Source of the DNA: Alphaproteobacteria bacterium
GTDB taxonomy: Bacteria > Pseudomonadota > Alphaproteobacteria > Rs-D84
Assembly: GCA_015062525.1 (NCBI GenBank)
Contig: SUUM01000001.1
Location: forward strand, 62,001-126,000
DNA: 64,000 bases
Reading direction: 5' to 3'
Shown here: positions 17,547-64,000 of the stretch, piece after piece
How the letters are laid out: every line of letters begins with the position of its first letter
How positions within the stretch are numbered: the stretch's first letter is position 1
Program-made: the position numbers and the translations under genes
Notes under the pieces: generated by a model
Seen by the model: only the letters and a program-made list of their open reading frames with translations
Databases searched by the model: none
Told to the model about the DNA's origin: nothing

Positions 17547-17660
17547 ATAAAAATAAAAGATAATGGTATAGATATGAGATGGGGGTGACATCGTAGTGTA
17601 CAAACGCTACATGAGATGTCGCCCCCGCCCATAGATATGCCATTAGATTTTATTTTATTA
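17547..17660 (+). repeat. palindromic intergenic element, copy 2 (type B ends)
   Basis: The left end AAAATAAAAGATAATGG (then TATAGATAT) pairs with the right end AGATATGCCATTAGATTT. The inner arm GGGGGTGACAT/ATGTCGCCCCC pairs fully, with one T.G wobble. The cap is GTAGTGT-ACAA-ACGCTAC, with an unpaired C on the left and ATGAG on the right. The last bases contain the stop codon of the upstream barrel gene (17658-17660). The rest of the 393-bp gap to rpsL holds the promoter at 17414 and nothing else recognisable. Confidence 0.85.
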
Positions 17661-18407
17661 AAAATCAATTCCAAACACAACCCCCATCGTCGCTGGACTA
17701 TGCTTGAAACTGTGCACAACATCTTTTTCCAAATAAAAGCCCAAATACTTGGTCGCATCAATATTATAATTAATTCCGCATTGCAATCTCAGCCGTTCCC
17801 CATCATAGTAATCATCAAACAAATCAAAATCAAACATCAATCCGCCAACCCAGTTCCAGCGATTATTAACAATATACTGTCCCTGAATACCGACGGTCAT
17901 CGCCCACGCATCAAATGTATCTTGTGGCAAATCATCGTTCAGATAATCCACCTGCACCACCCCTGCAACGGTCCAATTGTCTGTTATGCGTCCCATTCGC
18001 GCACCCGCCGTCCAATTATATGCAACCGTCTGTAAATTTTCACGCGTATCATAGATTTGTTTTACATCACCATAAACCTCGGCATGCAATTGATTTTCAT
18101 GCCACAAATCCCAATCAAACCCAAATTCCAAATCATTCCATGACCATTTTCCAAATTCTGGATTATCTGATGAATCATAAGACCCCGATGTCGCCACATG
18201 AATTGCAAAGGCATCCGAAATACCATACCCAAATTCATCGGCAATAACAAATCTGTCAAATTCAGAATTCGCCTGCACCGGCGTTAAAATATTATAAAAA
18301 CGCCCCTGTGCCGGATTATAAAACGGATTACCATTTATTACATTGGCGGCCCCTGCCCCACCCGACACAAACACCAGCGCACACGACAGCACAAAAATCT
18401 TTTTCAT
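17658..18407 (-). CDS. outer-membrane beta-barrel protein, unknown function
   Basis: The 249-residue product has a clear signal peptide (MKKIFVLSCALVFVSGGAGA, cleavage after AGA) and alternating aromatic strands (NWTAGARMG, WAMTVGIQGQYIV, WNWVGGLMFDF, RLRLQCGINYNI) ending in a C-terminal Phe, as expected for a BAM-folded barrel. No family can be named. It has no ordinary terminator; the palindromic element overlapping its stop may do that job. It lies upstream of the ribosomal promoter in the same direction. Confidence 0.8.
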   Translation of the reverse strand: MKKIFVLSCALVFVSGGAGAANVINGNPFYNPAQGRFYNILTPVQANSEFDRFVIADEFGYGISDAFAIHVATSGSYDSSDNPEFGKWSWNDLEFGFDWDLWHENQLHAEVYGDVKQIYDTRENLQTVAYNWTAGARMGRITDNWTVAGVVQVDYLNDDLPQDTFDAWAMTVGIQGQYIVNNRWNWVGGLMFDFDLFDDYYDGERLRLQCGINYNIDATKYLGFYLEKDVVHSFKHSPATMGVVFGIDF

Positions 18408-30480: not shown

Positions 30481-30822
30481 CAATCCAGATAACATCCGCG
30501 ACACTTCCGCTATATCTTTAAGTATTTTTTCTGCCTTGTTTTTTTCTACAAACCCCAAAGCAAACGCTAAATCTATCTGCGTTTCCAGCTCTGCGGCAGA
30601 CCCTTTTGCCACATATACAAAACGCACATATTCCTTGGTTGTTCCCCGCGCGGCCCCTTCTGCCAAATTGGAACAAATTGACACAGCAGCCCTGCGCATT
30701 TGTGAAACCAACCCAAACTGCTCATTCTGTGGAAAGCAAGCCGTCGCCTTATATACATCAACGGCCAGATTAAACCCGCATTTATATACTGTTAAATCCT
30801 TAACCGATTTCATGTATTCCAT
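30448..30822 (-). CDS. four-helix-bundle protein (S23 / 23S rRNA intervening-sequence type)
   Basis: The 124-residue product ([74 protein letters not shown]) matches the S23/IVP family, which is found inside 23S rRNA intervening sequences and as scattered single genes; Avd of diversity-generating retroelements has the same fold. The ATG at 30822 is itself part of a heptamer (AGTGATGG). The gene lies between lepA and rbfA, breaks no gene, and is framed by inverted heptamer arrays, so it behaves like a small mobile unit. Its biochemical role is unknown. Confidence 0.92.
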
Positions 30823-30856
30823 CACTAGCCACTAACAACTTACACTAACCACTAAA
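30822..30856 (-). repeat. 7-nt-period array at the 5' side of the four-helix-bundle gene
   Basis: On the minus strand the array reads TTAGTGG, TTAGTGT, AAGTTGT, TAGTGGC, TAGTGAT, then the gene's ATG. It is the inverted partner of 30441-30480. Confidence 0.8.
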
Positions 30857-30923
30857 TTGCCCTATGCGGCAATGATATACCAGTATTCCCGCATTCGCAA
30901 GGTGAATTTTTGCACAAAAACAA

Positions 30924-33265: not shown

Positions 33266-34372
33266 TTATTCTCTCACAACTTCCCAAGCATATTTTCCAG
33301 CCTTATAGGTCAATGCACATTTTTCTTCTGCACACTCTGGATCCTTTGGCATTGCAGTAAACATATCTACCCAAGCACCATCGTTATTTGTAACATAAAA
33401 GTTATCCCCAGATTCACCCATTGGCGCCGCTACCTGTTTGTCAGCCAAAGCAGTCTTAATCGCATATTGTGTCACCGTACCATCGACATCATCACCCGTA
33501 ACGTTGTTGTGCAATTTGAGCACTCCCGGAGCAGTTGAACTTGCCCCAGTCCCCTTAATAGTCAGCTTACCATCCTGACCCTGCTCAATTGCAACACCAT
33601 TGGACGCAGTGATATTTTCATTAACCACCAATTTATCTTGCTTCCCAGCCAACTCAGTTTTTGTCGCATAGGTTGTCGTAATTACATTACCACTTCCGTC
33701 CTTAGTCGCTTGCGCCGCAAGACCACCATAACTGGTTATCGGGGTTACAACCCCACCTGCACTCACATAAACAGGAGTCTTCACATCACCAACAGCTTCC
33801 CCAGTCGTTGTCAACCTTACCGCCGTGGACGCATTTTGCTTCTCATTCAACGCAGTCTGCAATCCACTAACCTTATTTATCGACAATGTCGGGATATCAG
33901 ATGCAGTCAAAGAAGAACTTCCCGTCACCAACCCCTTCGCATCATACGTAATTTTGGTCCCAGTTCCAGCTTGAATTGCATTATTTGCAACAACCGCCGC
34001 ATTTGCCTTAGTCAAAGCACTATCCGCAGTTGTCTGCGCTGTCGCCGCATTTGTTTTTGCTGTATTCGCAGTAGTCTGCGCTGTCGCCGCATTCGCTTTT
34101 GCTGTATCCGCAGTAGACTGCGCTGTCGCCGCATTTGTTTTTGCTGTATTCGCAGCAGTCTGCGCCGCCGCAGCTTCGGTTGCAACCTCTTTAATAGCGG
34201 CAACAACTGTTGTCGCGTCCGTCCCCATATTGTCCGAATTTACCGTACCAATGGTTGATGCATCTTGTTTACCCGCAAGTCCATTAGTTACATAGTCAAC
34301 CGACGCGATATCCGCATTTGCGGCGGTTGCGATTAACAAAGCACCCAAAGAAACAGTTAGTATTTTTTTTAT
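33266..34372 (-). CDS. secreted repeat protein, cluster member 2, probable ATA start codon
   Basis: In-frame translation from an ATA at 34372 gives KKILTVSLGALLIATAANA, a complete signal peptide, after the same GGAAGGGAA ribosome-binding site and 9-bp interval that precede the ATG of its paralog at 35445. The first ordinary start is a TTG inside the signal peptide. The mature part has YVTNGLAGKQD, an Ala/Thr heptad-rich coiled coil (TANTAKTNAATAQSTADTAKANA, about four repeats), a beta-rich region and the C-terminal block CAEEKCALTYKAGKYAWEVV. Total 368 residues. Probably a trimeric or fibrous surface protein; function unknown. Confidence 0.7.
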   Translation of the reverse strand: MKKILTVSLGALLIATAANADIASVDYVTNGLAGKQDASTIGTVNSDNMGTDATTVVAAIKEVATEAAAAQTAANTAKTNAATAQSTADTAKANAATAQTTANTAKTNAATAQTTADSALTKANAAVVANNAIQAGTGTKITYDAKGLVTGSSSLTASDIPTLSINKVSGLQTALNEKQNASTAVRLTTTGEAVGDVKTPVYVSAGGVVTPITSYGGLAAQATKDGSGNVITTTYATKTELAGKQDKLVVNENITASNGVAIEQGQDGKLTIKGTGASSTAPGVLKLHNNVTGDDVDGTVTQYAIKTALADKQVAAPMGESGDNFYVTNNDGAWVDMFTAMPKDPECAEEKCALTYKAGKYAWEVVRE

Positions 34373-34481
34373 AATTTCCCTTCCTTTATCTTAAGATAAT
34401 TTAATTATACCCAAAAAAACGAATCGACGCAAGGGCTTTTTTCCAATTTCAACAATTTTTTTACTGTTAACACACACGTAT

Positions 34482-34512
34482 AAAAAAAACGCAGACTTCT
34501 CTGCGTTTTTTT
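34482..34512 (-). terminator. intrinsic terminator of cluster member 3
   Basis: ACGCAGA-GAAG-TCTGCGT followed by eight T on the minus strand. Confidence 0.9.
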
Positions 34513-34515
34513 TAA

Positions 34516-35445
34516 TCATCTTGCGATAACTTCCCATTCATACCCCACTGTACCATCAGCACGTACCCCAAATGTCAGAACACATTTACTACTTTCATCA
34601 CTGCACGCCTCCAAAGGTGCTGCGATAATCTTACCAGTTTCATCGGTAACCATGACCTTGTGTCCATTTTCCTCACCCTGGTCCACATTAAGCTTAGCAT
34701 TAACCACCGTATGCACAGCCTTGGCACTGGGGTATTGGGTGGCTGTTGAACTTGCATTAACTGTTTGTGTCATATTAGATGTTGTTTCAACACCATCCAG
34801 GCTGGGAATTTCACTACGCAACACCATCAAAGCCCTAACTATATCCTCGGCTGATGCGGGAATTCGCCCCTCGATACCGGTGAACGAATCCAGATCCCTG
34901 ATTGTATCGCCATCCGTATTTGCATAAATAATATCCGTCCAACGTTGTTGTGTGGCCTGAATTTTACCATTCACCTGATCCAATCTTGAAATATACGCAT
35001 GTCCGATTTCCAACCCCTCGGTCGGTCCAGTTCCGGCCGTGGTATAATCCAAAGCATCAAATTTACCCCACACTGCCTCGGCGCTGGGGTACTGAACTTC
35101 TGTTGAATTTTCATCAATCGTCTGGGTTTTATTTGACTTATCTTCTTTATTGTTCAACGGAACAATCGCGGTATCATAAACCGCCTTGGCACTGGGGTAC
35201 TTGACGGCTGTTGAATTTTCATCAATCGTCTGGGTTTTATTAGAAAGTAATTCAAACGCATCAAAACCAGAAAACAATTCATTAATCGCGGCAACCAAAC
35301 TGGTTTTATCCGACGTATCTAACCGCGACAACGAACCAGCAATCGAATCAACATAGCCCTTTGATGCAACGGCACGAACCTCTGCTGCATTGGCCGCACA
35401 TACCGCCATACCGCCCATAAATAATCCAAGTGCGATTCGTTTCAT
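34516..35445 (-). CDS. secreted repeat protein, cluster member 3
   Basis: The 309-residue product has a signal peptide (MKRIALGLFMGGMAVCAANAAE), the N-terminal motif VASKGYVDSIAGSLSRLD shared with member 4, and three copies of a unit of about 23 residues of the form NKTQTIDENSTAVKYPSAKAV. The YPSAKAV repeat resembles stem repeats of phage tail proteins. It ends with CSDESSKCVLTFG...VGYEWEVIAR, the C-terminal Cys-pair block. A GGAAGGGAA ribosome-binding site precedes the ATG. The surface role is inferred from export signal and repeats. Confidence 0.75.
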   Translation of the reverse strand: MKRIALGLFMGGMAVCAANAAEVRAVASKGYVDSIAGSLSRLDTSDKTSLVAAINELFSGFDAFELLSNKTQTIDENSTAVKYPSAKAVYDTAIVPLNNKEDKSNKTQTIDENSTEVQYPSAEAVWGKFDALDYTTAGTGPTEGLEIGHAYISRLDQVNGKIQATQQRWTDIIYANTDGDTIRDLDSFTGIEGRIPASAEDIVRALMVLRSEIPSLDGVETTSNMTQTVNASSTATQYPSAKAVHTVVNAKLNVDQGEENGHKVMVTDETGKIIAAPLEACSDESSKCVLTFGVRADGTVGYEWEVIAR

Positions 35446-35496
35446 ATGTTCCCTTCCTTTTTCAACTTACTACAGTTATAGAAAAAAAAAGAAAAT

Positions 35497-35790
35497 ATGT
35501 CCAGCACAAAAACAAAAAATCAAGTACAAAAATTAAAATATTTTTATTTGCAATCCTGTTTTCGAATCGCTATTGAATACACCAATCACAAAAAACGACC
35601 AAAAACAATAAACGAAAGCAACCAAGAACCACAAAAAAAAGCAACAAAACCCCAAGGTCCCAAAACAAAATTACACATACATTCAATTATACATCCGAAT
35701 CGATATTAAGTACACCGACCACAATAACAAAAATAAAAACCCAAGAATCAAAAACAAAAGAATCAAAAACAAAAGAACTAAAAAATAAAA
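35497..35790. other. A-rich intergenic stretch with diverged direct repeats
   Basis: The plus strand is strongly A-rich and T-poor and holds no supported gene. Two copies of a roughly 30-bp sequence (CGAATCGCTATTGAATACAC at about 35555 and CGAATCGATATTAAGTACAC at about 35697) lie some 142 bp apart, and AATCAAAAACAAAAGAATCA-type short repeats fill 35745-35775. It looks like decayed tandemly duplicated DNA. Confidence 0.45.
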
Positions 35791-35850
35791 AAGACCGTGA
35801 TAATTCCACGAACATATGTTCACACCGGAATCATCAACAGTCTTTTTTTA
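35791..35850 (-). terminator. long hairpin terminator of cluster member 4
   Basis: On the minus strand AAGACTGTTGATGATTCC pairs imperfectly with GGAATTATCACGGTCTT around an inner GAACATATGTTC palindrome, and TTTTTTATTTTTT follows. Confidence 0.82.
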
Positions 35851-35861
35851 TCTAACCGGTT

Positions 35862-37031
35862 TTACTGTGGCTGAACAAAAACTTGGTCTGGCAATGACTG
35901 AGTCTGAGCTGCCGTACCATCAATAATTGTACCATCAACAGGTTTTGTTAAAATGGTCCATGCCAATTCACCATATTGACTGGTCAACACGCAAACAACC
36001 CCTTCTCCCGAACAAAGTGTTGGCATAGCTGGAAACGTCGTATTGATTTTACCATCTGCATCAATTGTGATATTATTACCATTTTTATACGTCGTAGTGA
36101 TTTCACCAGAATCAGGATCAATGTTAATAAAATCACCTGCCGTAAGTTTATTCTGCTTTCCACCCAACGCGGTGAACACAGCCTTGGTTGTTGGCGCTGT
36201 ATCATTATGCGTACCCGTATCCGCATTAACTTCCTGATCGAAGTCCTTTCCCTCTGCGACAACCTTACCATCTGTTTGCGTTACCTTGTTAAAGAAACCT
36301 GTAGATTGTGTATACGTACCATCTTCAATATCCCCCTGTACATTAGTTGGAATAGCACTACGCACACCTTCAATCGCTTCATGCACAGCCTTGGTTGTTG
36401 GCGCTGTATTATTATGCGTACCCGTGGTCGCATTAACTTCCTGATCGAAATCCGTTGTCCCTGCGGTAACCGCACCACCAGTTTGTGTTACACTGCTGAT
36501 AAAACCAATATTAGTTGAGACATCCTGCCCATCAGTAAATGCATTCTGCTTTGAAGTTGCATATCCTTCAAAGGTATCAACCAAAGCTTCTGTAATACCA
36601 GAATTAACAGCCGCCATTTGATCATCATCTAACTTATCCTGCTTTTTATCCCACGCTTCATACACAGCCTTGGTTGTTGGCGCAGTATTTGTATGCGTAC
36701 TCGTATCCAGACTAACCTCCGTATCAAACAATCTTTCCTCTGCAGAGACCTTACCATCTGTTTGCTTTACTTCGTAAAAGAAACCTTCATTTGTTGTATA
36801 CGTACCATCTGCAATTTCCCCCTGTACACTAGTTGGAATAGCCCTCTTCACTTCATTAATAGCGCCAACCAAATCACTTTTAACTGTCGTGCCCAATTCA
36901 CTCAATTTACCAGCAATAGAGTCAACATACCCCTTGGACGCAACGGCAACCGGCGCAGCATTAGCCTCGGCAACCGCACCCATCAAGATTGCAGCCGCAA
37001 ATCCCGAAAACATAATATTTTTTACTTTCAT
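35862..37031 (-). CDS. secreted repeat protein, cluster member 4
   Basis: The start at 37031 (MKVKNIMFSGFAAAILMGAVAEANA) follows GGAAGG; the open upstream part is not conserved. The 389-residue product has VASKGYVDSIAGKLSELG, three repeats of a roughly 100-residue unit containing GTHNNTAPTTKAV (variants THTNTAPTTKAV, THNDTAPTTKAV) with KQNKL or KQDKL linkers, and the C-terminal block CSGEGVVCVLTSQYGELAWTIL followed by a short tail. It shares N- and C-terminal blocks with members 2 and 3, so they arose by duplication with different central repeats. Confidence 0.75.
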   Translation of the reverse strand: MKVKNIMFSGFAAAILMGAVAEANAAPVAVASKGYVDSIAGKLSELGTTVKSDLVGAINEVKRAIPTSVQGEIADGTYTTNEGFFYEVKQTDGKVSAEERLFDTEVSLDTSTHTNTAPTTKAVYEAWDKKQDKLDDDQMAAVNSGITEALVDTFEGYATSKQNAFTDGQDVSTNIGFISSVTQTGGAVTAGTTDFDQEVNATTGTHNNTAPTTKAVHEAIEGVRSAIPTNVQGDIEDGTYTQSTGFFNKVTQTDGKVVAEGKDFDQEVNADTGTHNDTAPTTKAVFTALGGKQNKLTAGDFINIDPDSGEITTTYKNGNNITIDADGKINTTFPAMPTLCSGEGVVCVLTSQYGELAWTILTKPVDGTIIDGTAAQTQSLPDQVFVQPQ

Positions 37032-37206
37032 TTTTTTCCTTCCTTTCTTTCGTTTTGTTTTGTTTTGTTTTTCTGTATTACACAGGGTTATTCTAGATCT
37101 CTCCAACTTATTCTAAACTTTTCAATCTTCTCCTATTAATCCAACTTGTACAAATAATATCATATTTTCAAAATTCGCACAAGCACATTTTTTCATTTTA
37201 TTCAAA

Positions 37207-39327
37207 TTAATTTAACGACATTGTTGTACTGGGCACCACCGCATCCAGCGTTAAATCCAACGGTTTAAAATCCCCACCAATAATTTCAATTGGCGCATAA
37301 CTGACGTTTCCGGCATTATCAAAATTAACCACATAACTGCCCTGAGTCGCCGCCGAACGCAACACACCATCCAAATCAAAATTTTCCAATGTTTCACTAA
37401 TGGCATTTAACTCATCGGTAACCGCCTTTTGCGTCATGGCACCGTCTTCGCTTTCCCCCGTTGTACCATATAATTTAGTCACACCTGCGGTTTGTGCATT
37501 ACCCAAATCATATGTTGTACCCGTCGCGCTGATTACGCCACCTTCAATGGTGATGTTTTCACCCGCTTCATACGTTGTACCCGTCGCGCTGATTACATTA
37601 TTTTCAATTTTAATATTTTCACCCGCCGTATATGTCGTATCTGTATCCGTCGCACTGATTACGCCATTTTCAATCGTAACATTGTCACCGGCTGAATACG
37701 TGGCACTGATTTCACCATTTTCAATTGCGATATTGTCACCAGCTGTATACGTTGTATCCGTCGCACTGATTACATTATTTTCAATTTTAATATTTTCACC
37801 CGCCGTATATGTCGTATCTGTATCCGTCGCGCTGATTACACCATTTTCAATTGTAACATTGTCACCGGCTGAATACGTCGTATCCGTCGCACTGATTACA
37901 CCATTTTCAATTGCGATATTGTCACCCGCCGTATATGTCGTATCTGTATCCGTCGCACTAATTACGCCATTTTCAATTGTAACATTGTCACCGGCTGTAT
38001 ACGTCGTATCCGTCGCACTGATTACGCCGCCTTCGGAAATACTAACATTTTCACCCGCCGTGTAATCTTTTATCATATCCTTGGTCGCAAACTTGGCGTC
38101 TGCCTCGGCCTTGGTATAATAATTTGTTAATTCAGCCTGACCTGCGTTAATCCTATCAATCGCATCCTGCAATTCAGATTTTGCATCCGCCAATTCCTGT
38201 TTTGTCGCCAGACCTTCAATCGCCACATCAATCTGGTTTTCAACATCACTTGATGTAACAAAGCCCTCGATTGCATTCTCTACAGCTTCCAATCTTGCCT
38301 GCAAATCCGTAATTGCTTGGCCCATTGCTGAATCCGCACCCTGCAAAGCCACAATTGCTTCGTTCAAGCCCGCAATCGCCGCATCAACATAGGCCTTATT
38401 AACATCCGGCTGTTCAATTGCCGCAATCGCATTCTGCAACGCCACATCCGCAGCTTCCAGATTTGACTTAATGGCATCCACATATTCCTTGTTAACCAGC
38501 CCTTCGGTCGATGGGGTTGAATTTTTCAACTCATTAATCGCCGCCTGCAAGCCCGCATCCACCGCTTTTAATTCTTCAACCTTGGCATTCAAATCATCGG
38601 CAGTAATCATACCACCCTGCAAAGCCTCAATCGCCGCATTCATGGACACATCAGCCGATTCCAACGCATCCACCGCGCTTTGCAATTCTGACAAATCAGC
38701 AGATGTCAACAAACCATCTAAATCAGATTTTTTTGCATACTCGGACAAATCCGGAATAACAATCTCGTTAATTCTATCCTCTAAATCGCTCAGGCTTTCT
38801 TCGGACGCAAAATAATCATTCAAATCAATTTCTTCGGGCACACCATCCTGTACAATGGTCAAAATCCCATTTTCAAATTCAACTGTCGGATACTCGCCAG
38901 TCAATGAAGCAATTTCTTCCTTTAACCCTTCTACATCAACAACCAAATCATCCACAGTTTTTTTCAGGTCACTTATACTCGACTGTCCAGGATTAATAGT
39001 ACCAGACGAAGACCCCGCACCACCCGGCAGCGCAACACCACCCAGATACTTACCAATTGACAAACGTGGCGCCGCAGCAGTACGCGTAGATGACACTTTC
39101 GACGACGCTGTCGATTTAGCAGCGGTCGTACGCAACGAGCCCGCACGCACAGACCCAACCGTTCCGGTCGTTGGCTTTGCCCCGGCCGTCGCCGCACTAG
39201 AAGCACTAGAATAGGTCCCTGCCCCACCCAGCGAACGCACCGCAGACGCACCGAATGATGGCAACGCAATCACCGTGCCCAACACACAAATTATTGATAA
39301 TGTTGAAATTTTTAATTCTGTTTTCAT
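37207..39327 (-). CDS. secreted coiled-coil and beta-repeat fibre protein, cluster member 5
   Basis: The 706-residue product has a signal sequence (MKTELKISTLSIICVLGTVIALPSFGA), an Ala/Ser/Thr-rich stretch, a long coiled-coil region (about residues 115-420, with NKEYVDAIKSNL and NKAYVDAAIAGL) and about ten short repeats of the form TYTAGDNVTIENGVISATD (about residues 423-625), then a C-terminal domain starting YDLGNAQTAGVTKLYG. The architecture is like a phage tail fibre or trimeric adhesin stalk, but there is no YadA-type anchor. It lacks the Cys-pair block. No terminator was found behind it. Confidence 0.72.
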   Translation of the reverse strand: MKTELKISTLSIICVLGTVIALPSFGASAVRSLGGAGTYSSASSAATAGAKPTTGTVGSVRAGSLRTTAAKSTASSKVSSTRTAAAPRLSIGKYLGGVALPGGAGSSSGTINPGQSSISDLKKTVDDLVVDVEGLKEEIASLTGEYPTVEFENGILTIVQDGVPEEIDLNDYFASEESLSDLEDRINEIVIPDLSEYAKKSDLDGLLTSADLSELQSAVDALESADVSMNAAIEALQGGMITADDLNAKVEELKAVDAGLQAAINELKNSTPSTEGLVNKEYVDAIKSNLEAADVALQNAIAAIEQPDVNKAYVDAAIAGLNEAIVALQGADSAMGQAITDLQARLEAVENAIEGFVTSSDVENQIDVAIEGLATKQELADAKSELQDAIDRINAGQAELTNYYTKAEADAKFATKDMIKDYTAGENVSISEGGVISATDTTYTAGDNVTIENGVISATDTDTTYTAGDNIAIENGVISATDTTYSAGDNVTIENGVISATDTDTTYTAGENIKIENNVISATDTTYTAGDNIAIENGEISATYSAGDNVTIENGVISATDTDTTYTAGENIKIENNVISATGTTYEAGENITIEGGVISATGTTYDLGNAQTAGVTKLYGTTGESEDGAMTQKAVTDELNAISETLENFDLDGVLRSAATQGSYVVNFDNAGNVSYAPIEIIGGDFKPLDLTLDAVVPSTTMSLN
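37491..38066 (-). repeat. in-gene tandem DNA repeats encoding the beta repeats
   Basis: Units of 54-66 bp with the recurring blocks GCACTGATTAC and CCATTTTCAAT(T) alternate through 37491-38066. Near-identical neighbours make copy-number change by slippage or recombination likely. Confidence 0.8.
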
Positions 39328-39407
39328 AAACCCTCAACTCCACTATTCTAAAGTTTATCACATTTTGCGAATCGGAACAACAACCTTTTTCCTAAAAAAT
39401 CATTTTT

Positions 39408-40334
39408 TTAGAATTCATACCGCAATCCAACCGATACAGAATTATCTAAAATCAAACCAATCTCATTCTTAAAGTGGGTTCCCGAAACATCTACACCACC
39501 AATATAGGTACCTTGTGCAAACACACGCTCTTGTTCTGTCCCATCAAACATCGCCAGGCGATAACGAAAATCCAGCACCAAATTATGCTCCAATTTATAT
39601 GTCCACCCCGCCATTAACGCACCCATCAACGAAAGACTATATTTGCTACGTTCACCACCTACAAACATCATAGTATCCAGCACGGTTTTTGGCAACGCCG
39701 CCCCCACACCTGCACCAATATACAAGCCATTTGCAAAATCACGATAAACATTGGCAATTAAATACGGTACCGTCAGCTCAAAATTATAACCTTGGTCGTT
39801 ATCCTCAAAGCTCCCAATCAGCCCAGCCTCAAATTCTCCGCGCCAAAAATCACCAATTGTACGTCCAAGAAAAACACCGCCACCAAAAACAGCCTCTGCA
39901 AAACTTTCCTTATCATCATCAACACCAATATCTGGCTTTGTGCTGTATTCATTATCCCAACTCAACAAACTCAGACCTAAACGTCCCCCTACATACCAAC
40001 TCATTTCAGCCTGGCTTTTATCAGCCTTTGGCTCTGCACATGAACCACAACGACCTGAATTACACCCTGTTTTAACCTTATCGGCACAATTCTTTATCGT
40101 CACACATGAACCACAACAACCTGAATTACACCCTGTTTTAACCTTATCGGCACAATTCTTTATCGTCACACATGAACCACAACAACCTGAATTACACCCT
40201 GTTTTAGCCTTGTCCGTATAATCATAGACAACCTTATAAGCACCATTTGAAGTACGATACAAATAACCAGGGGTCGCATTCGCCGCAGCTGTCACCATCA
40301 CACCCAAACACACTACAGACATTATTTTATTCAT
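39408..40334 (-). CDS. outer-membrane barrel with an N-terminal Cys-rich tandem repeat
   Basis: The start at 40334 (MNKIMSVVCLGVMVTAAANA) follows GGAGG. The 308-residue product has a signal peptide, about 80 residues made of 22-residue repeats (two full copies plus a third variant) each with CNSGCCGSC and, in two, CVTIKNCA, then a barrel of about 200 residues with many YxG-type strands ending in a C-terminal Phe (VGLRYEF). The barrel resembles OmpA-like/opacity-type porins. The Cys clusters could bind metal or crosslink outside the cell. Function unknown. Confidence 0.75.
   Translation of the reverse strand: MNKIMSVVCLGVMVTAAANATPGYLYRTSNGAYKVVYDYTDKAKTGCNSGCCGSCVTIKNCADKVKTGCNSGCCGSCVTIKNCADKVKTGCNSGRCGSCAEPKADKSQAEMSWYVGGRLGLSLLSWDNEYSTKPDIGVDDDKESFAEAVFGGGVFLGRTIGDFWRGEFEAGLIGSFEDNDQGYNFELTVPYLIANVYRDFANGLYIGAGVGAALPKTVLDTMMFVGGERSKYSLSLMGALMAGWTYKLEHNLVLDFRYRLAMFDGTEQERVFAQGTYIGGVDVSGTHFKNEIGLILDNSVSVGLRYEF
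40037..40214 (-). repeat. 66-bp tandem repeat encoding the Cys-rich units
   Basis: CACATGAACC starts at 40037, 40103 and 40169, exactly 66 bp apart; copies are nearly identical (for example CAACGACC versus CAACAACC). About 2.7 copies are present. Confidence 0.9.
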
Positions 40335-47131: not shown

Positions 47132-47238
47132 AAAATTAAATAGAATGATTTAGATAAAAACAAATCGGGTATCGTAGTGTACAGACGCTACATGAGATAC
47201 CCGATTTGTTTTTAGATGAATTATTATATTTAATTTTT
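47132..47238 (+). repeat. palindromic intergenic element, copy 3 (type A ends)
   Basis: Left end AAATAGAATGATTTAGAT pairs with right end AGATGAATTATTATATTT. The arm CAAATCGGGTAT/ATACCCGATTTG is a perfect 12-bp stem. The cap is GTAGTGT-ACAG-ACGCTAC with a single C on the left and ATGAG on the right. The right end touches the efp stop codon (47238-47240). Confidence 0.88.
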
Positions 47239-47807
47239 TATTTTGCCCGTTCGACGTATTCCAACGTTTCAGTATTCACAACAATCTTTTCACCCTGTTC
47301 GATAAACAGCGGAACCTGAACACGAACACCATTGTCCAAGATGGCGGGCTTGCCACCACTGGATGATACGGTCTGCCCCTTTAACGCAGGTTCAGTTTCT
47401 TCGACAACTGCAATTACCGTTTTTGGCAAAGAAATGGAAACGGGCTGCCCCTCGACAAAGTTTGCCTTGACCACCATTTCCGGTGCAAGGAATTTCATAG
47501 CCTCGCCCAGTGAATCCACCGGCATTGTGAACTGTTCATAATCCGACAAATTCATAAAGAACGCATCTGTTCCATCGGCATACAGATACTGACAATCAAA
47601 ATCTTCGACCATCAGTTTTTCAACCTTATCTTCGGCGCGCCAACGGTCGCCCCCCTTGTTGCCCGAATCAATATCGCGCAGGTCGGCCTGAACAAACGCA
47701 CCACCCTTGCCTGGTTTAACCTTGGTAATGGATGTAACTGAATAACGTTTTCCGTTATGAGAAATCACCCAACCCACACGCATATCATTTGCAATATAAG
47801 ATGCCAT
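47238..47807 (-). CDS. efp: elongation factor P
   Basis: The 189-residue product has the three OB-like domains of EF-P. The loop VKPGKGGAF at about residues 30-38 carries the Lys that is modified in many proteobacteria. It relieves ribosome stalling at polyproline. No ordinary terminator follows; the palindromic element starts at the stop. Confidence 0.95.
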   Translation of the reverse strand: MASYIANDMRVGWVISHNGKRYSVTSITKVKPGKGGAFVQADLRDIDSGNKGGDRWRAEDKVEKLMVEDFDCQYLYADGTDAFFMNLSDYEQFTMPVDSLGEAMKFLAPEMVVKANFVEGQPVSISLPKTVIAVVEETEPALKGQTVSSSGGKPAILDNGVRVQVPLFIEQGEKIVVNTETLEYVERAK

Positions 47808-47867
47808 TTTATACCCCTTTTAATTAATTGATTTGATTATAAAAATTTCCCACACAAACGCAAGCCA

Positions 47868-48410
47868 TTATTGCATTTCGCGTTTACGGGCCCAATATCG
47901 ATCAATACTGTCCATAATTAATTTATCCGCCGTTGCACGATCCGCCCAACCCATCACCTTGGACCACTTGTTAGGTTGCAAATCCTTGTAATGCTGAAAA
48001 AAATATTCTATTTTCGACCGCAGAATTTCCGGCAACTGTTCAACAAATTCTGTCTTTTCATAATATGGGTCAATTTTATCACGTGGCACACAGATAATTT
48101 TTTCATCACCGCCCGCCTGATCTTCCATCAACAATGCGCCGATTGGACGAACCTCAATCAACACACCTGGGCGCAATGGCGCATTACATACAACCACACA
48201 ATCCAATGGGTCGCCATCATCACCCAACGTTCCCGGAAAATAACCATAGTTTGCTGGATACGCCATCGGCGCATGTAAAATACGATCAACCTTTAACAGA
48301 CCGGTTTCCTTGTCAATTTCATATTTCACATGCCCATCTTCAGGGATTTCAATAATTGCATTCATTTTTTTTGGTGGCATCTCCCCAGCTGCCATTTGTT
48401 CCAACGTCAT
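47868..48410 (-). CDS. ppa: inorganic pyrophosphatase (family I)
   Basis: The 180-residue protein has the PPase signature DDGDPLDCVVV with the catalytic Asp residues, preceded by YPANYGYFPGTLG, and QAGGDEKIICVP. It hydrolyses pyrophosphate in the cytoplasm and so drives nucleic-acid and acyl-CoA synthesis forward. It lies 60 bp before efp in the same direction. Confidence 0.96.
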   Translation of the reverse strand: MTLEQMAAGEMPPKKMNAIIEIPEDGHVKYEIDKETGLLKVDRILHAPMAYPANYGYFPGTLGDDGDPLDCVVVCNAPLRPGVLIEVRPIGALLMEDQAGGDEKIICVPRDKIDPYYEKTEFVEQLPEILRSKIEYFFQHYKDLQPNKWSKVMGWADRATADKLIMDSIDRYWARKREMQ

Positions 48411-48492
48411 AAATAACCTCTTTAATATTAGTTGACAAATAATATCATAAAAAAAAGCAATTGCAATTTATTAAGGCAAATAAAAGTTTATC

Positions 48493-48594
48493 TTAGTGAT
48501 AAGTGGTCAGTGTAAGTGGTAAGTGATGGCACTATAATGTGCGGCATTCGCCGCACACATCCACTAACCACTAGACACTTGCACTAACCACTAA
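48493..48594. repeat. empty inverted 7-nt-period repeat unit with a central hairpin
   Basis: Left array 48493-48529 (AGTGATA, AGTGGTC, AGTGTA, AGTGGTA, AGTGATG) and right array 48561-48594 (CACTAAC, CACTAGA, CACTTG, CACTAAC, CACTAA) are inverted copies. Between them is only TGTGCGGC-ATTC-GCCGCACA (48538-48557). The unit has the same frame as the four-helix-bundle locus at 30441-30856, without the gene. Confidence 0.85.
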
Positions 48595-48619
48595 AAAATC
48601 CCCGTTCCCGGGGATTTTT
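48595..48619 (-). terminator. intrinsic terminator after dnaN
   Basis: AAATCCCCGGGAACGGGGATTTTTT on the minus strand, directly joined to the heptamer array. Confidence 0.85.
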
Positions 48620-48625
48620 CATTTC

Positions 48626-49744
48626 CTACATGCGCATTGGCATTAACACATACAACGCATCCGTATCTTTGTCCACGGAATTGATTTTCGTAGGCGCTAA
48701 TGGGTCCTGCATTTCCATCTGGAATTTTTCGCCTTCGACCTGACCGGCAACATCCAGCAAGAATTTCACATTAAACACAACCGTGAATGATGCATCACCA
48801 TTGTATTCAATATCTAATTCCTGGGTTGCGGTACCGGCATCTGGACTGGACGCATTGATAACCAACTTATTCATGCTGAATGTCAACTGAACAGATTTTG
48901 TTTTATCAACACTTGCAACCGAAACCAAGTCAACCGCATTAATAAACTGCTTTCTGTCCAAAATTGCGATTTTGTCATTTCCCTTTGGAATTACAACGCG
49001 ATAATTTGGATATTGCGCATCAACCAGTTTGCTGGTTAATGTTGCAGAACCAACCGTAAAGCGCGCCTTGGTATCAGACAATTCAACCAAAACATCATCA
49101 ACATTGGCGTCTTCCAGCAACTTAGATAATTCACCAATTACACGACGTGGCAAAATAACCGACGGCATTTCCGCGCTGCCCGCGGGGGCCGGCATTGCAC
49201 ACAACGCCATACGTTGCGCGTCCGTTGCAACGGCGGTTAATTTCTTTTCATCGCCTTCGTCTGCAATATGGAAATAGATACCCCCCAAATGATAACGAAC
49301 ATCATCTGTTGGAATTGCAAATTTAGTTTGATTAATCAGATGTGCTAAATCACCCGTTGTCATCTGGAATTTTGTTGTCAGATTGCTGCCCGCCATGGCT
49401 GGGAAATTTTCCGCCGGCAATGTCGGCAAACGGAACACCGCACGACCACTGGACACAACCAGCTGGTCGCCAGACTGTTTGAATGAAATTTCCGCATCAT
49501 CTGGCAACTTGCGCACAATATCATACAACATTTGAACTGGAACGGTTATCTTGCCCCCCAGTGTAATATCGGCGGCAACATGTTCAACCAATTCTAAATC
49601 CACATTTGTCGCAGACAGAATTAAATCATCTGCGGCTTCGATCTTAACATTCATCAAAATCGGCAATGTTGCGCGCTTTTCCACAATCGACTGCATATGC
49701 CCCAGCGCACGTATCAAAACCTGACGAAACACTGAAAATTCCAT
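48626..49744 (-). CDS. dnaN: DNA polymerase III sliding clamp (beta subunit)
   Basis: The 372-residue product has the three clamp domains, starting MEFSVFRQVLIRALGHMQSIVEKRATLPILMNV, with GIYFHIAD.. and LTAVATDAQRMA in the middle and the C-terminal VLMPMRM. It makes the replisome processive. dnaA and recF are not beside it; it stands between ppa and the diadenylate cyclase, separated from the latter by three palindromic elements. Confidence 0.95.
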   Translation of the reverse strand: MEFSVFRQVLIRALGHMQSIVEKRATLPILMNVKIEAADDLILSATNVDLELVEHVAADITLGGKITVPVQMLYDIVRKLPDDAEISFKQSGDQLVVSSGRAVFRLPTLPAENFPAMAGSNLTTKFQMTTGDLAHLINQTKFAIPTDDVRYHLGGIYFHIADEGDEKKLTAVATDAQRMALCAMPAPAGSAEMPSVILPRRVIGELSKLLEDANVDDVLVELSDTKARFTVGSATLTSKLVDAQYPNYRVVIPKGNDKIAILDRKQFINAVDLVSVASVDKTKSVQLTFSMNKLVINASSPDAGTATQELDIEYNGDASFTVVFNVKFLLDVAGQVEGEKFQMEMQDPLAPTKINSVDKDTDALYVLMPMRM

Positions 49745-49889
49745 TATAATACTCCTGTTTCCTTATATGTATTTGTGTACCCTACACTCTTTTGTCCTAA
49801 GCATACCAAAAAACCCCGATTCGGTGCAAGACCAAAAGAACACCCCAAAAAGATAAAATCGTACCCCATACTCCTAGCAGCGGGGCAGA

Positions 49890-49992
49890 AATAAATTAGA
49901 ATGATTTAGATAAAACCAAATCGGGCATCGTAGTGTACAGACGCTACATGAGATGCCCGATTTGATTTTAGATGAATTATTATAATTTATTG
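49890..49992 (+). repeat. palindromic intergenic element, copy 4 (type A ends)
   Basis: It is nearly the same as copy 3: AAATTAGAATGATTTAGAT with AGATGAATTATTATAATTT, arm CAAATCGGGCAT/ATGCCCGATTTG. The one arm difference from copy 3 (T:A versus C:G in the fourth pair from the core) is compensated on both sides. First of three tandem copies filling the dnaN-cdaA gap. Confidence 0.88.
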
Positions 49993-50100
49993 TAAATAAA
50001 AGATAATGGTATAGATGTGCGCAGTGCCGTCCCCGTAGTGTACATATCGCTACATGTGGGGGCGGCACCGCACACAGATATGCCATTAGATTTTATGAAA
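49993..50100 (+). repeat. palindromic intergenic element, copy 5 (type B ends)
   Basis: Ends AAATAAAAGATAATGGTAT and ATATGCCATTAGATTTTAT. Arm GTGCG...GCCGTCCCC/GGGGGCGGC...CGCAC is GC-rich and pairs with a T.G wobble. Core GTAGTG-(7 nt)-CGCTAC with ATGTG in place of ATGAG. Confidence 0.88.
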
Positions 50101-50200
50101 TAAATTAGAATGATTAAGATACGCACGAACCCGCAACCGTAGTGTACAAATCGCTACATGAGGTTGCGGGTTCGTTCGTAGATTGATTATTATAATTTAT
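50098..50200 (+). repeat. palindromic intergenic element, copy 6 (type A ends)
   Basis: Ends AAATTAGAATGATTAAGAT and AGATTGATTATTATAATTT. Arm ACGAACCCGCAAC/GTTGCGGGTTCGT is perfectly paired and unrelated in sequence to copies 3-5. Core GTAGTG-TACAAAT-CGCTAC, left C, right ATGAG. The right end contains the stop codon of cdaA (50197-50199). Confidence 0.9.
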
Positions 50201-50955
50201 TTATACAAGACTTTTTCCAATTTGGCGCGTAACTTCTTGATATCCTCATACTTGGTAATCTTGCCACGTTCTGCGATGGAAATATCGCCACTTTCTTCGG
50301 ACACGACCAAGACAACGGCACTTGAAACCTCGCTTAGCCCCAGGGCGGCACGATGACGCGTACCATATTTCCAATTCAAATTATTCTGTGACAATGGCAA
50401 AATTCCACCCGCGTATGCAATACGATTATTTTCAATAATAACCGCCCCGTCATGTAATGGCGTTTTATTAAAGAAAATAGTCAGCAACAATTCGCTACTG
50501 ATTTTTGCATCAATCGCAATACCCTTTTTATCAATCGCACTTTCGTCCAAACCGGTCGGAAAAACAATCAAGGCACCCGTATGCTTGCCAGACATATATT
50601 CAACGGCGCTAACAATCGCATCCAAAGATTTCGTATCCTGTTTGCGATTTGCGCCCGCCTTTAACATACGACGCAACCCCTGAACATTACCCATCAATGC
50701 CATAAACTTACGCAATTCGGGCTGAAAAACAACAATCAAACTTAACGACAAGAACAAAGCCGTGTAATGCAAAAATGTCGCCAGCAAATTTAAATGTACC
50801 AACGGCAAGATAAAACTTAGCACCCAAAGCCCTGCCAACCCCAGTAACCCACGCACCAACTTTTCAGACTGGGTATTTTGAATAAAACTGCGATAGAACA
50901 TATACATTAATATCGCGATAATTAAAATTTGCACCAAACCAATCCAATCGAACAT
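50197..50955 (-). CDS. cdaA: diadenylate cyclase (CdaA/DacA type)
   Basis: The 252-residue product has three N-terminal membrane helices (within residues 5-85) and a DisA_N catalytic domain with both motifs, PLHDGAVII (DGA) and GTRHRAALG (RHR), about 30 residues apart. It should make cyclic di-AMP from ATP at the inner membrane. The usual Firmicutes partners (ybbR/cdaR, glmM) are not next to it; the asmA gene is 19 bp upstream. C-di-AMP synthesis is uncommon among alphaproteobacteria. Confidence 0.93.
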   Translation of the reverse strand: MFDWIGLVQILIIAILMYMFYRSFIQNTQSEKLVRGLLGLAGLWVLSFILPLVHLNLLATFLHYTALFLSLSLIVVFQPELRKFMALMGNVQGLRRMLKAGANRKQDTKSLDAIVSAVEYMSGKHTGALIVFPTGLDESAIDKKGIAIDAKISSELLLTIFFNKTPLHDGAVIIENNRIAYAGGILPLSQNNLNWKYGTRHRAALGLSEVSSAVVLVVSEESGDISIAERGKITKYEDIKKLRAKLEKVLYK

Positions 50956-63455: not shown

Positions 63456-63494
63456 CCACCACTAACCACTAGCCACTTACACTAACCACTAAAA
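63456..63494. repeat. 7-nt-period array (CACTAAC type), single side
   Basis: CACTAAC, CACTAGC, CACTTA, CACTAAC, CACTAAA follow at seven-base steps; nearly the same as the right arms at 30822-30856 and 48561-48594. No inverted partner is found within 300 bp, so it is a half unit. Confidence 0.75.
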
Positions 63495-63518
63495 AAATTC
63501 CCAAACCGGGGGATTTTT
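63491..63518. terminator. terminator-like hairpin next to the heptamer array
   Basis: TTCCC-(6 nt)-GGGGA with flanking A and T runs, fused to the array as at 48595 and 32506. Confidence 0.6.
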
Positions 63519-63552: not shown

Positions 63553-63658
63553 TATATAGAATGATTTAGATAAAATCAAATCGGGCATCGTAGTGTACAA
63601 ACGCTACATAAGATGCCTGCCCTGTCCATAGATACGCCATAGATTTTTATAAAATAAA
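63553..63658 (+). repeat. palindromic element, copy 7 (mosaic: type A left, type B right)
   Basis: The left half is type A (AGAATGATTTAGAT, arm CAAATCGGGCAT) and the right half is type B (arm ATGCCTGCCCTGTCC, then ATAGATACGCCAT). The arms pair only over GGCAT/ATGCC. The right arm's CTGTCC matches GGACAG in the left arm of copy 8, so recombination between adjacent copies is likely. Confidence 0.8.
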
Positions 63659-63718
63659 AGATAATGGTATAGATATGGACAGTGCCGTCCCCGTAGCGTA
63701 CAAACTCCTTGCCAGGCT
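63650..63718 (+). repeat. palindromic element, copy 8 (truncated type B)
   Basis: Left end AAAATAAAAGATAATGGTAT and left arm GGACAGTGCCGTCCCC, then GTAGCGTACAAA; after this the sequence leaves the family (CTCCTTGCCAGG). Confidence 0.75.
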
Positions 63719-63720
63719 TA

Positions 63721-63800
63721 AATTAAATAGAATGATTTAGATAAAAGCAAATCGGGCATCGTAGTGTACAAACGCTACATGAGATGCCATCCCCATAACC
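63721..63800 (+). repeat. palindromic element, copy 9 (type A left half, right end lost)
   Basis: AAATAGAATGATTTAGAT, arm CAAATCGGGCAT, intact core GTAGTGT-ACAA-ACGCTAC with ATGAG, then only ATGCC of the right arm before unrelated sequence. Confidence 0.8.
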
Positions 63801-63906
63801 TAAATTAAAGATGACGGTATAGATAAACGAATTGTGGGTGTCGTAGTGTACAAACGCTACATGAGACACCCACAATTCGCTTTAGATATGCCGTAAGATT
63901 TAATTT
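63801..63906 (+). repeat. palindromic element, copy 10 (intact type B)
   Basis: Left AAATTAAAGATGACGGTAT pairs with right ATATGCCGTAAGATTTAATTT; relative to copies 2 and 5 a T:A pair in the terminal stem is C:G on both sides. Arm ACGAATTGTGGGTGT/ACACCCACAATTCG is perfect. The right end contains the stop codon of the secretin gene (63900-63902). Confidence 0.9.
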
Positions 63907-64000
63907 AGCGGGGCACCCCAGTGCTGCTGAATACTCCTCTCTACATCCATTGGGCTGACCAAAACCTGTGGCGTCAGGATAACAACCAACACCTCACGTG
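63900..64000 (-). CDS. C-terminal end of a secretin (cut by window edge)
   Basis: The last 33 codons read REVLVVILTPQVLVSPMDVERS... ending GAPLN. The pattern R-E-x-x-V-x-L-T-P-x-V/I-L/V is the C-terminal border of the secretin (GspD/PilQ) domain, which forms the outer-membrane pore of type II secretion and type IV pili. Only the tail is visible, so the system cannot be named. The prepilin at 54043 could belong to it. No ordinary terminator follows; the palindromic cluster does. Confidence 0.7.
   Translation of the reverse strand, partial: REVLVVILTPQVLVSPMDVERSIQQHWGAPLN

Follow-up and report, generated by a model that had tools for sequence, protein, structure and literature searches.

A widespread alphaproteobacterial palindrome with a conserved tip and freely varying paired arms lies at gene ends and on one strand in its best-studied genus

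Analysis of a 64,000-nucleotide stretch of an alphaproteobacterial genome (assembly GCA_015062525.1, contig SUUM01000001.1, positions 62,001–126,000 of the forward strand; hereafter the window) identified a family of palindromic elements of ~106 bp, each full copy having a fixed tip and matched arms that are free in sequence. The family is real and widely spread, occurring in "Ca. Enterousia" and relatives, a genus of small gut bacteria, with scattered relatives in the class also carrying elements. In this genus, full elements lie at gene stops, are oriented with respect to the chromosome strand and, at the EF-P gene (efp) and a few other gene ends, exchange with intrinsic terminators; gene-stop position, terminator exchange, locked orientation and class-wide spread were all absent from the initial annotation of this DNA and were found with computational tools. 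The explanation that we favour over the others and develop below, and that we consider evenly poised between right and wrong, is that of a mobile palindrome which is recognised through its folded C-rich strand, replaces terminators and has its arms renewed by fold-back copying.

Elements were located with a covariance model (R1), built from 16 elements including the copy at 47132 and run with cmsearch. The parts of a full copy follow in the order A/T-rich outer stem of ~20 bp, AGAT, arm (mostly 18–19 nt up to the cap), cap, ATGA bulge (4 bases), second arm, AGAT and outer stem, and a gapless alignment of 16 copies of one length (alignment A1) agrees with the nested layout first described. AGAT facing AGAT makes a tandem G.A mismatch, and the outer stem, which also contains G.T wobbles, is paired over ~20 bp and forms terminal inverted repeats, as in miniature inverted-repeat transposable elements (MITEs). 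Covariation was measured as pair counts against controls with slid partners. The 46 pairs of the long helix in A1 (columns i and 107-i) are formed in 94.8% of cells, and 30 of the 46 show changes on both sides, a pattern lost on sliding the partners; both-side changes occupy 129 cells, compared with 14–36 when partners are slid by 1–3 columns, so the covariation expected of the arms is present. The A1 count is cleaner than that from a 150-row alignment (A2), because the latter holds reverse-strand echoes of the same palindromes and was fitted to the model. The cap has the form G[A/T]A-GTGTAn..n'TACAT-GA. The stem GTAGTG/CGCTAC originally assigned to it is seen in the genus, but is probably not the universal one: in 73 distinct caps outside the genus, among the matches listed (104 of 153 cap matches outside the genus entered this analysis), the pair next to the core (C-G, T-A, G-C) is Watson-Crick in 95% against 41% expected from base frequencies, an excess that points to TGTAn/n'TACA as the probable universal stem. 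Many caps in this genus apparently no longer have the last pair and have acquired GTAG/CTAC.

The initial interpretation stood as regards a real family, its spread, its lack of an Rfam match at the gathering score and its covarying arms, but not as regards arms that share no sequence: the copies at 47132, 49888, 63554 and 63720 have AAATCGGG(C/T)ATC in common, and a larger sample of arms forms a connected network made of one-sided and paired steps. Stem sequence is not conserved, with 116 arm haplotypes and 103 distinct left arms (13 nt) among 169 elements, those with fewer than 8 of the first 13 arm positions paired having been dropped (181 to 169). On a minimum spanning tree of the 116 haplotypes, 14 of the 25 edges of length two consist of a single paired change. 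The share of transitions on edges up to length two is 9/14 for paired and 31/45 for single changes, where two independent hits predict 0.91 for the paired ones (p = 0.007); on edges up to length three the shares are 13/21 and 39/60, where two hits predict 0.87 (p = 0.003) and copying predicts 0.65 (p = 0.82). Arm cells are Watson-Crick in 938 of 996, with 17 G.T and 20 A.C (83 haplotypes; 23 of 106 were left out of this count for an inner loop). The G.T share is therefore <2%, compared with 8.7% in the tRNAs of the sampled loci (100 of 1145 cells), where A.C is 0, a value to be read with the caution that ARAGORN may not bracket A.C. Judged from these sequence comparisons, the paired changes are of the sort expected when an arm is copied from its partner, and not when two hits occur independently; we read the transition share together with the lack of a G.T excess as a sign of fold-back copying between the arms.

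The same statistics bear on a different explanation, in which the + strand, antisense to the end of the gene, yields a structured non-coding RNA whose arms ordinary compensatory selection keeps paired. Strong covariation speaks for such an RNA, as do the more stable fold of the + strand (see below), the fixed G.U and G.A features and the recurrence of the cap in the class with a covarying pair. We nevertheless consider it unlikely: G.T in the arms is no commoner than A.C and far below its share in tRNAs, paired transversions are too many for a two-step change, and wholly different arms occur at one locus in close species. By eye, the aligned regions upstream of the left ends also have no consistent -35, and a promoter of the element's own was set aside as the main reading on this ground, although TATAAT-like hexamers (TAGAAT, GATAAT) are present at these ends. 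The causes first listed for the paired arms (compensatory change, arm replacement or templated palindrome formation) were aptly chosen, and the data favour templated copying and replacement over stepwise RNA-style compensation.

The position of the elements is equally constrained. In an initial set of full elements, the closest gene on the right is antisense to the element in 103 of 112, and its stop lies 29–55 nt from the cap, approximately at the right end of the element, in 92 of these 103; the left-hand gene runs either way (54/53). In the window, the genes so flanked comprise rpsM, efp, a cdaA-like gene and one without a name. Among 45 distinct EF-P gene ends, 37 have an element, with no terminator within 110 nt, and the other 8 have a hairpin terminator, a split from which we conclude that element and terminator are mutually exclusive there. 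These numbers combine script calls (30 element only, 7 terminator only, 8 neither) with inspection by eye of the last class, which resolved into 7 elements with a variant cap and 1 terminator-like hairpin (L204); the 45 ends mix loci chosen for elements with 30 loci chosen for EF-P alone, and among the latter an element is present in 22. At the efp of one locus (L183), the usual element is absent and an element of opposite orientation lies farther left, beyond a terminator. Between the source genome and a nearly complete relative in three contigs (G052), 11 orthologous gene ends were empty by script, of which 3 by eye hold variant elements, 1 is unclear and 7 are truly empty; a clear intrinsic terminator stands at 5 of the seven (at one of them the ortholog is only 64% identical), a GC hairpin without A/T tracts at 1 and neither at 1. 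In distant genomes, 93 elements remained once matches with a weak fold (above -18 kcal/mol) were dropped; a stop is adjoined antisense in 42 of them, compared with ~23% of random non-coding positions, and in sense in 10, which at ~15% for random positions is no enrichment.

Exchange with terminators, and the location of many elements between convergent genes, could also be expected of ordinary bidirectional terminators that share a cap by gene conversion and are not mobile themselves. This we regard as very unlikely, given that a U-run (5 T in 6) stands beside the stem, in either direction, in only 43 of 140 elements, that the outer motifs are fixed, and that a bidirectional terminator would not be expected to be locked to one strand. 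Such a lock is nearly complete: across many genomes of the genus, the C-rich strand of the locus carries the element in 262 of 265 (truncated array members and several elements per locus are included, and skew was taken over 3–8 kb around each). Gene direction could cause this lock, but between convergent genes, too, the C-rich strand carries the element in 126 of 128 elements and at 23 of 24 loci, which counters that cause. The source genome has 21 R1 places on the + strand, on contigs C4 (14, all its elements being on +), C9 (6) and C15 (1), and all 12 minus-strand matches coincide with + places and are echoes of the palindromes. In G052, the 18 caps are all on + and all in the arm of strong negative GC skew (C2 0–240 kb and C3), with none in the 489-kb contig C1; when elements of all genomes are mapped to G052, 25 of 249 fall on its other long contig. 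Contigs C1–C3 of this genome present two strong-skew stretches of opposite sign and a long near-zero stretch, and the elements lie in one of the strong-skew stretches. In 143 of 145 elements the + strand has the more stable fold of the two, since the fixed mismatches read there as G.A and G.T; this holds with RNA and DNA parameters alike, and energy does not separate RNA from single-stranded DNA. Distant elements fold better as the + strand in 85 of 93 (RNA parameters).

The cap pattern occurs 8 times in the window, compared with 0 in 100 dinucleotide shuffles, and an exact cap pattern matches at least 109 stretches of public genomes; the 80 matches listed come from metagenome-assembled genomes (MAGs) whose titles read Alphaproteobacteria, proteobacterium, Rickettsiales, Ca. 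Enterousia or, in one case, bacterium, with many from ruminant guts. Within the order, R1 has matches in 89 of 142 genomes and 7 of 20 genera, and the number of copies varies between genomes, from zero to as many as 24 model matches if echoes are counted. In a sample of the class, 6 genomes of 289 have matches, including 4 from beyond the order. As the loci of these four share the cap, we searched with AGTGTAn(4-9)TACATGAG, which gave 171 matches in 29 of 385 genomes; the reversed cap pattern, used as a control, gave 8 matches in all 385. Outside the genus, the cap AGTGTAn...n'TACATGAG has 153 exact matches in 27 genomes, 11 of which have at least 4 matches. Many distant copies follow the same plan with unrelated arms and stems (read at loci other than L284). 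By a simple count, at least 8 of the first 10 arm positions are paired in only 21 of 50 distant copies, so some of these have looser arms or are chance, and some single matches outside the genus that fall within long reading frames and have no paired arms (L303, L304, L311) may likewise be chance. No match was found in viral contigs searched with the exact cap pattern, in plasmids searched with one element or in phages searched with the triple array described below. No Rfam match over elements reached its gathering score in the window, the element set or 18 distant loci (the best sub-threshold match, MIR8562, has 36.6 bits against a gathering score of 211), and a literature search confined to open-licence papers found no published description. 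Small intergenic palindromes are a known kind of element; the conserved-tip, free-arm design, the terminator exchange and the strand lock are, to our knowledge, new.

Elements also occur in arrays, which follow a plan of half elements at the left and one full element at the gene. In several arrays (L122, L026, L048, L018, L133, L175) the final left arm does not match the right arm that follows; such a right arm fits another array member in L122, L026, L048 and L133, and none was seen to fit in L018 and L175. Copies with unpaired arms, which the initial annotation had named as grounds for doubting the family, do exist (these six arrays and the copy at 63554), but all are chimeras or truncated array members. 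In one clade (L162, L166, L167, L171), array members stop in the cap loop around GTGTA(C) and lack the CCCCTTGC spacer, which gives the loop the look of a breakpoint. The cap is inverted within paired arms in two cases (L184, L047), and the chimeras and these two inverted caps fit fold-back copying. In PMC8794818, loop inversion with compensatory change is regarded as the strongest support for template switching, and a leading-strand bias in E. coli is noted. L184 and L047 show only the inversion and no such change beside it, and our strand would be the opposite of the one favoured there.

Nested arrays and half elements, a copy number ranging from none to many, and presence or absence at orthologous gene ends would equally suit a classical MITE, or an element like the repetitive extragenic palindromes (REPs), that is moved by a trans-acting transposase and owes its variety of arms to many mobilised subfamilies. 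A fixed MITE does not, however, give the network of paired one-base changes, and the enzymes looked for are largely missing, which makes this account improbable in our judgement. Y1 transposase (PF01797) was found in 0 of 30 relatives, not all of them element-bearing, and was absent from 16 of 17 further element-bearing genomes, being present only in G189 (1 of 47 genomes overall); other transposase families were not searched. Reverse transcriptase was not found in 9 of 13 element-rich genomes, G052 among these. RAYT/Y1 and reverse transcriptase were rejected as mobilisers, since they are missing from most genomes searched. All 19 genomes searched, whether rich in elements or free of them, have tyrosine recombinases, among which IntI was not distinguished.

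Under the explanation by mobility and fold-back copying, the palindrome would take the place of an intrinsic terminator, chiefly behind genes read in the direction of the replication fork, and its C-rich strand, antisense to the gene, folds into a long hairpin with the fixed cap, the tandem G.A and the outer-stem G.T wobbles. A putative host or element factor probably recognises the fixed parts, so that these would stay fixed. During copying, the nascent strand would fold back at the cap and one arm would serve as template for the other, as in quasi-palindrome template switching; a mutation in one arm would thereby become a paired change, and the arms would stay paired without a fixed sequence. 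Copying between loci may enter at C-rich or A/T-rich microhomology and leave at the shared cap, which would yield half elements, arrays and left/right chimeras. Mobility itself we infer from the presence/absence pattern and the arrays. A bolder version, which we offer tentatively and lean against, is that the element is inherited by structure and not by sequence, with only its cap and a handful of mismatches constant, its arms being rewritten from each other at the fork and diverging without bound, and that it would remain recognisable to a putative single-strand hairpin enzyme and be swapped for terminators on one chromosome strand.

Several results weigh against the fold-back explanation. 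On longer edges of the tree, the transition share of paired changes falls below both predictions (44/83 up to length 6, p = 0.04 for copying; 53/111 up to length 8, p = 8e-5), for which saturation is our guess. Paired and single changes stand at 13:37 within a locus and 49:124 between loci (p = 0.86), that is, without a difference. The imperfect states on the shortest edges include 20 G.T and 13 A.C, a slight wobble excess, which is reversed over 18 arm positions (33 G.T and 58 A.C). Pairs of elements in the source genome and G052 that look vertically inherited show, by eye, mostly one-sided changes. The fixed G.A and the bulge would be lost if fold-back copying were the only process, and selection on both has to be assumed as well. 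Distant elements adjoin an antisense stop in only 42 of 93, and no mobilising enzyme was found in a search that covered PF01797, PF00078 and PF00589 only. Finally, we take the G-rich strand to be the leading strand, in agreement with most genes of those G052 arms lying on it; if it leads, the well-folding strand would be the nascent lagging strand, whereas in the E. coli experiments described in PMC8794818, PMC7202029 and PMC6357072 template switching occurs preferentially on the leading strand.

The window contains 7 full elements, 1 chimera and 2 half elements, all on the + strand (R1, with the halves read in the sequence), and all ten places listed in the initial annotation are real (R1 matches on +; the copy at 63650 was read in the sequence). 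Gene names are from NCBIfam matches. A divergent full element with the cap GAAGTG...GCTACACGAG (709–813, R1 E = 1.1e-10) abuts the stop of rpsM (uS13, 812–1189, −), and one with a type B outer stem (17550–17656, E = 4e-22) abuts that of a gene without an NCBIfam name (17658–18407, −). The full element at 47132–47237, with a type A outer stem (E = 2.9e-26, being a row of the model itself), abuts the stop of efp (47238–47807, −). Three full elements stand in tandem, of type A (49888–49993, E = 2.2e-24), type B (49996–50096, E = 4.1e-17) and type A (50097–50203, E = 2.7e-23), the third overlapping the stop of the cdaA-like gene (50197–50955, −). That gene, which adjoins the triple array, is predicted to encode a CdaA-type diadenylate cyclase (TIGR00159, E = 1.4e-64) in an alphaproteobacterium. 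At the end of the window, a chimera read in the sequence joins a type A left arm and cap to a type B right half (63554–63650, E = 1.2e-8) and is followed by a type B left half, also read in the sequence, which ends in the cap loop and is followed by the CTCCTTGCC spacer (63651–63704). Next come a type A left half with the cap and the first right-arm bases (63720–63789; cap match, with a partial R1 match of the cap only at 63755–63788) and a full element (63801–63907, E = 9.2e-22) beside the stop of a minus-strand gene at the window's end. A repeat of another kind, CCACTAACCACTAG..CACTTACACTAACCACTAA (family D19), lies between genes at 30822–30880, 48561–48619 and 63459–63517, two of these directly before terminator hairpins, and reading frames in the region 34000–40234 consist of tandem repeats with lengths from 21 bp to 66 bp and above (families D1, D3, D8, D9, D12).

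Paired changes in stems are taken as the signature of a selected RNA structure, and here a large natural family covaries strongly but shows neither the wobble bias nor the transition bias that stepwise compensation in RNA would leave. The family could serve as a clean system in which to study template switching as an origin of covariation, a point that PMC8794818 raises. It would also be a previously undescribed, widespread repeat, exchanged with terminators and confined to one strand.

Among known systems, the stems of REPs are conserved in sequence. The elements resemble REP/RAYT systems as short intergenic palindromes in high copy, some directly behind genes, as the account of REPs in PMC12306157 has it (short, intergenic, in many copies, some just past genes), but here the stems vary and the cap is conserved, and Y1 transposase occurs in 1 of 47 genomes. 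They share AT-rich hairpins and nested clusters with MITEs, Rickettsia palindromic elements (RPEs) and the terminator-like SPRITE included. Prokaryotic MITEs are fixed sequence families. They are AT-rich and hairpin-forming and occur in clusters of mutually inserted elements in the survey given in PMC10969869, where the pneumococcal SPRITE is terminator-like and RPEs lie in frame inside genes; elements of this genus, in contrast, sit behind stops and not in frame within genes. Quasi-palindrome or template-switch mutation, with its copying of arm from arm, loop inversion and strand bias in the cases presented in PMC8794818, PMC7202029 and PMC6357072, is a process seen in reporters or rRNA stems, and here it may be the main route of change for a whole multi-copy family. 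Intrinsic terminators have the same place behind the stop, a GC-rich stem and A/T-rich flanks, but the elements are 106 bp long with a fixed cap and internal mismatches, and only a minority have a U-run. Integron attC sites act as a folded single strand with a variable paired region and lie at gene 3' ends in fixed orientation; their conserved boxes are found at the base, and the tip varies. Cassette arrays were not seen, though no search aimed at them was made. The likeness to attC extends to the folded strand, the variable paired part, the gene 3' end and the fixed orientation, and the difference is that in the present family it is the tip that is conserved.

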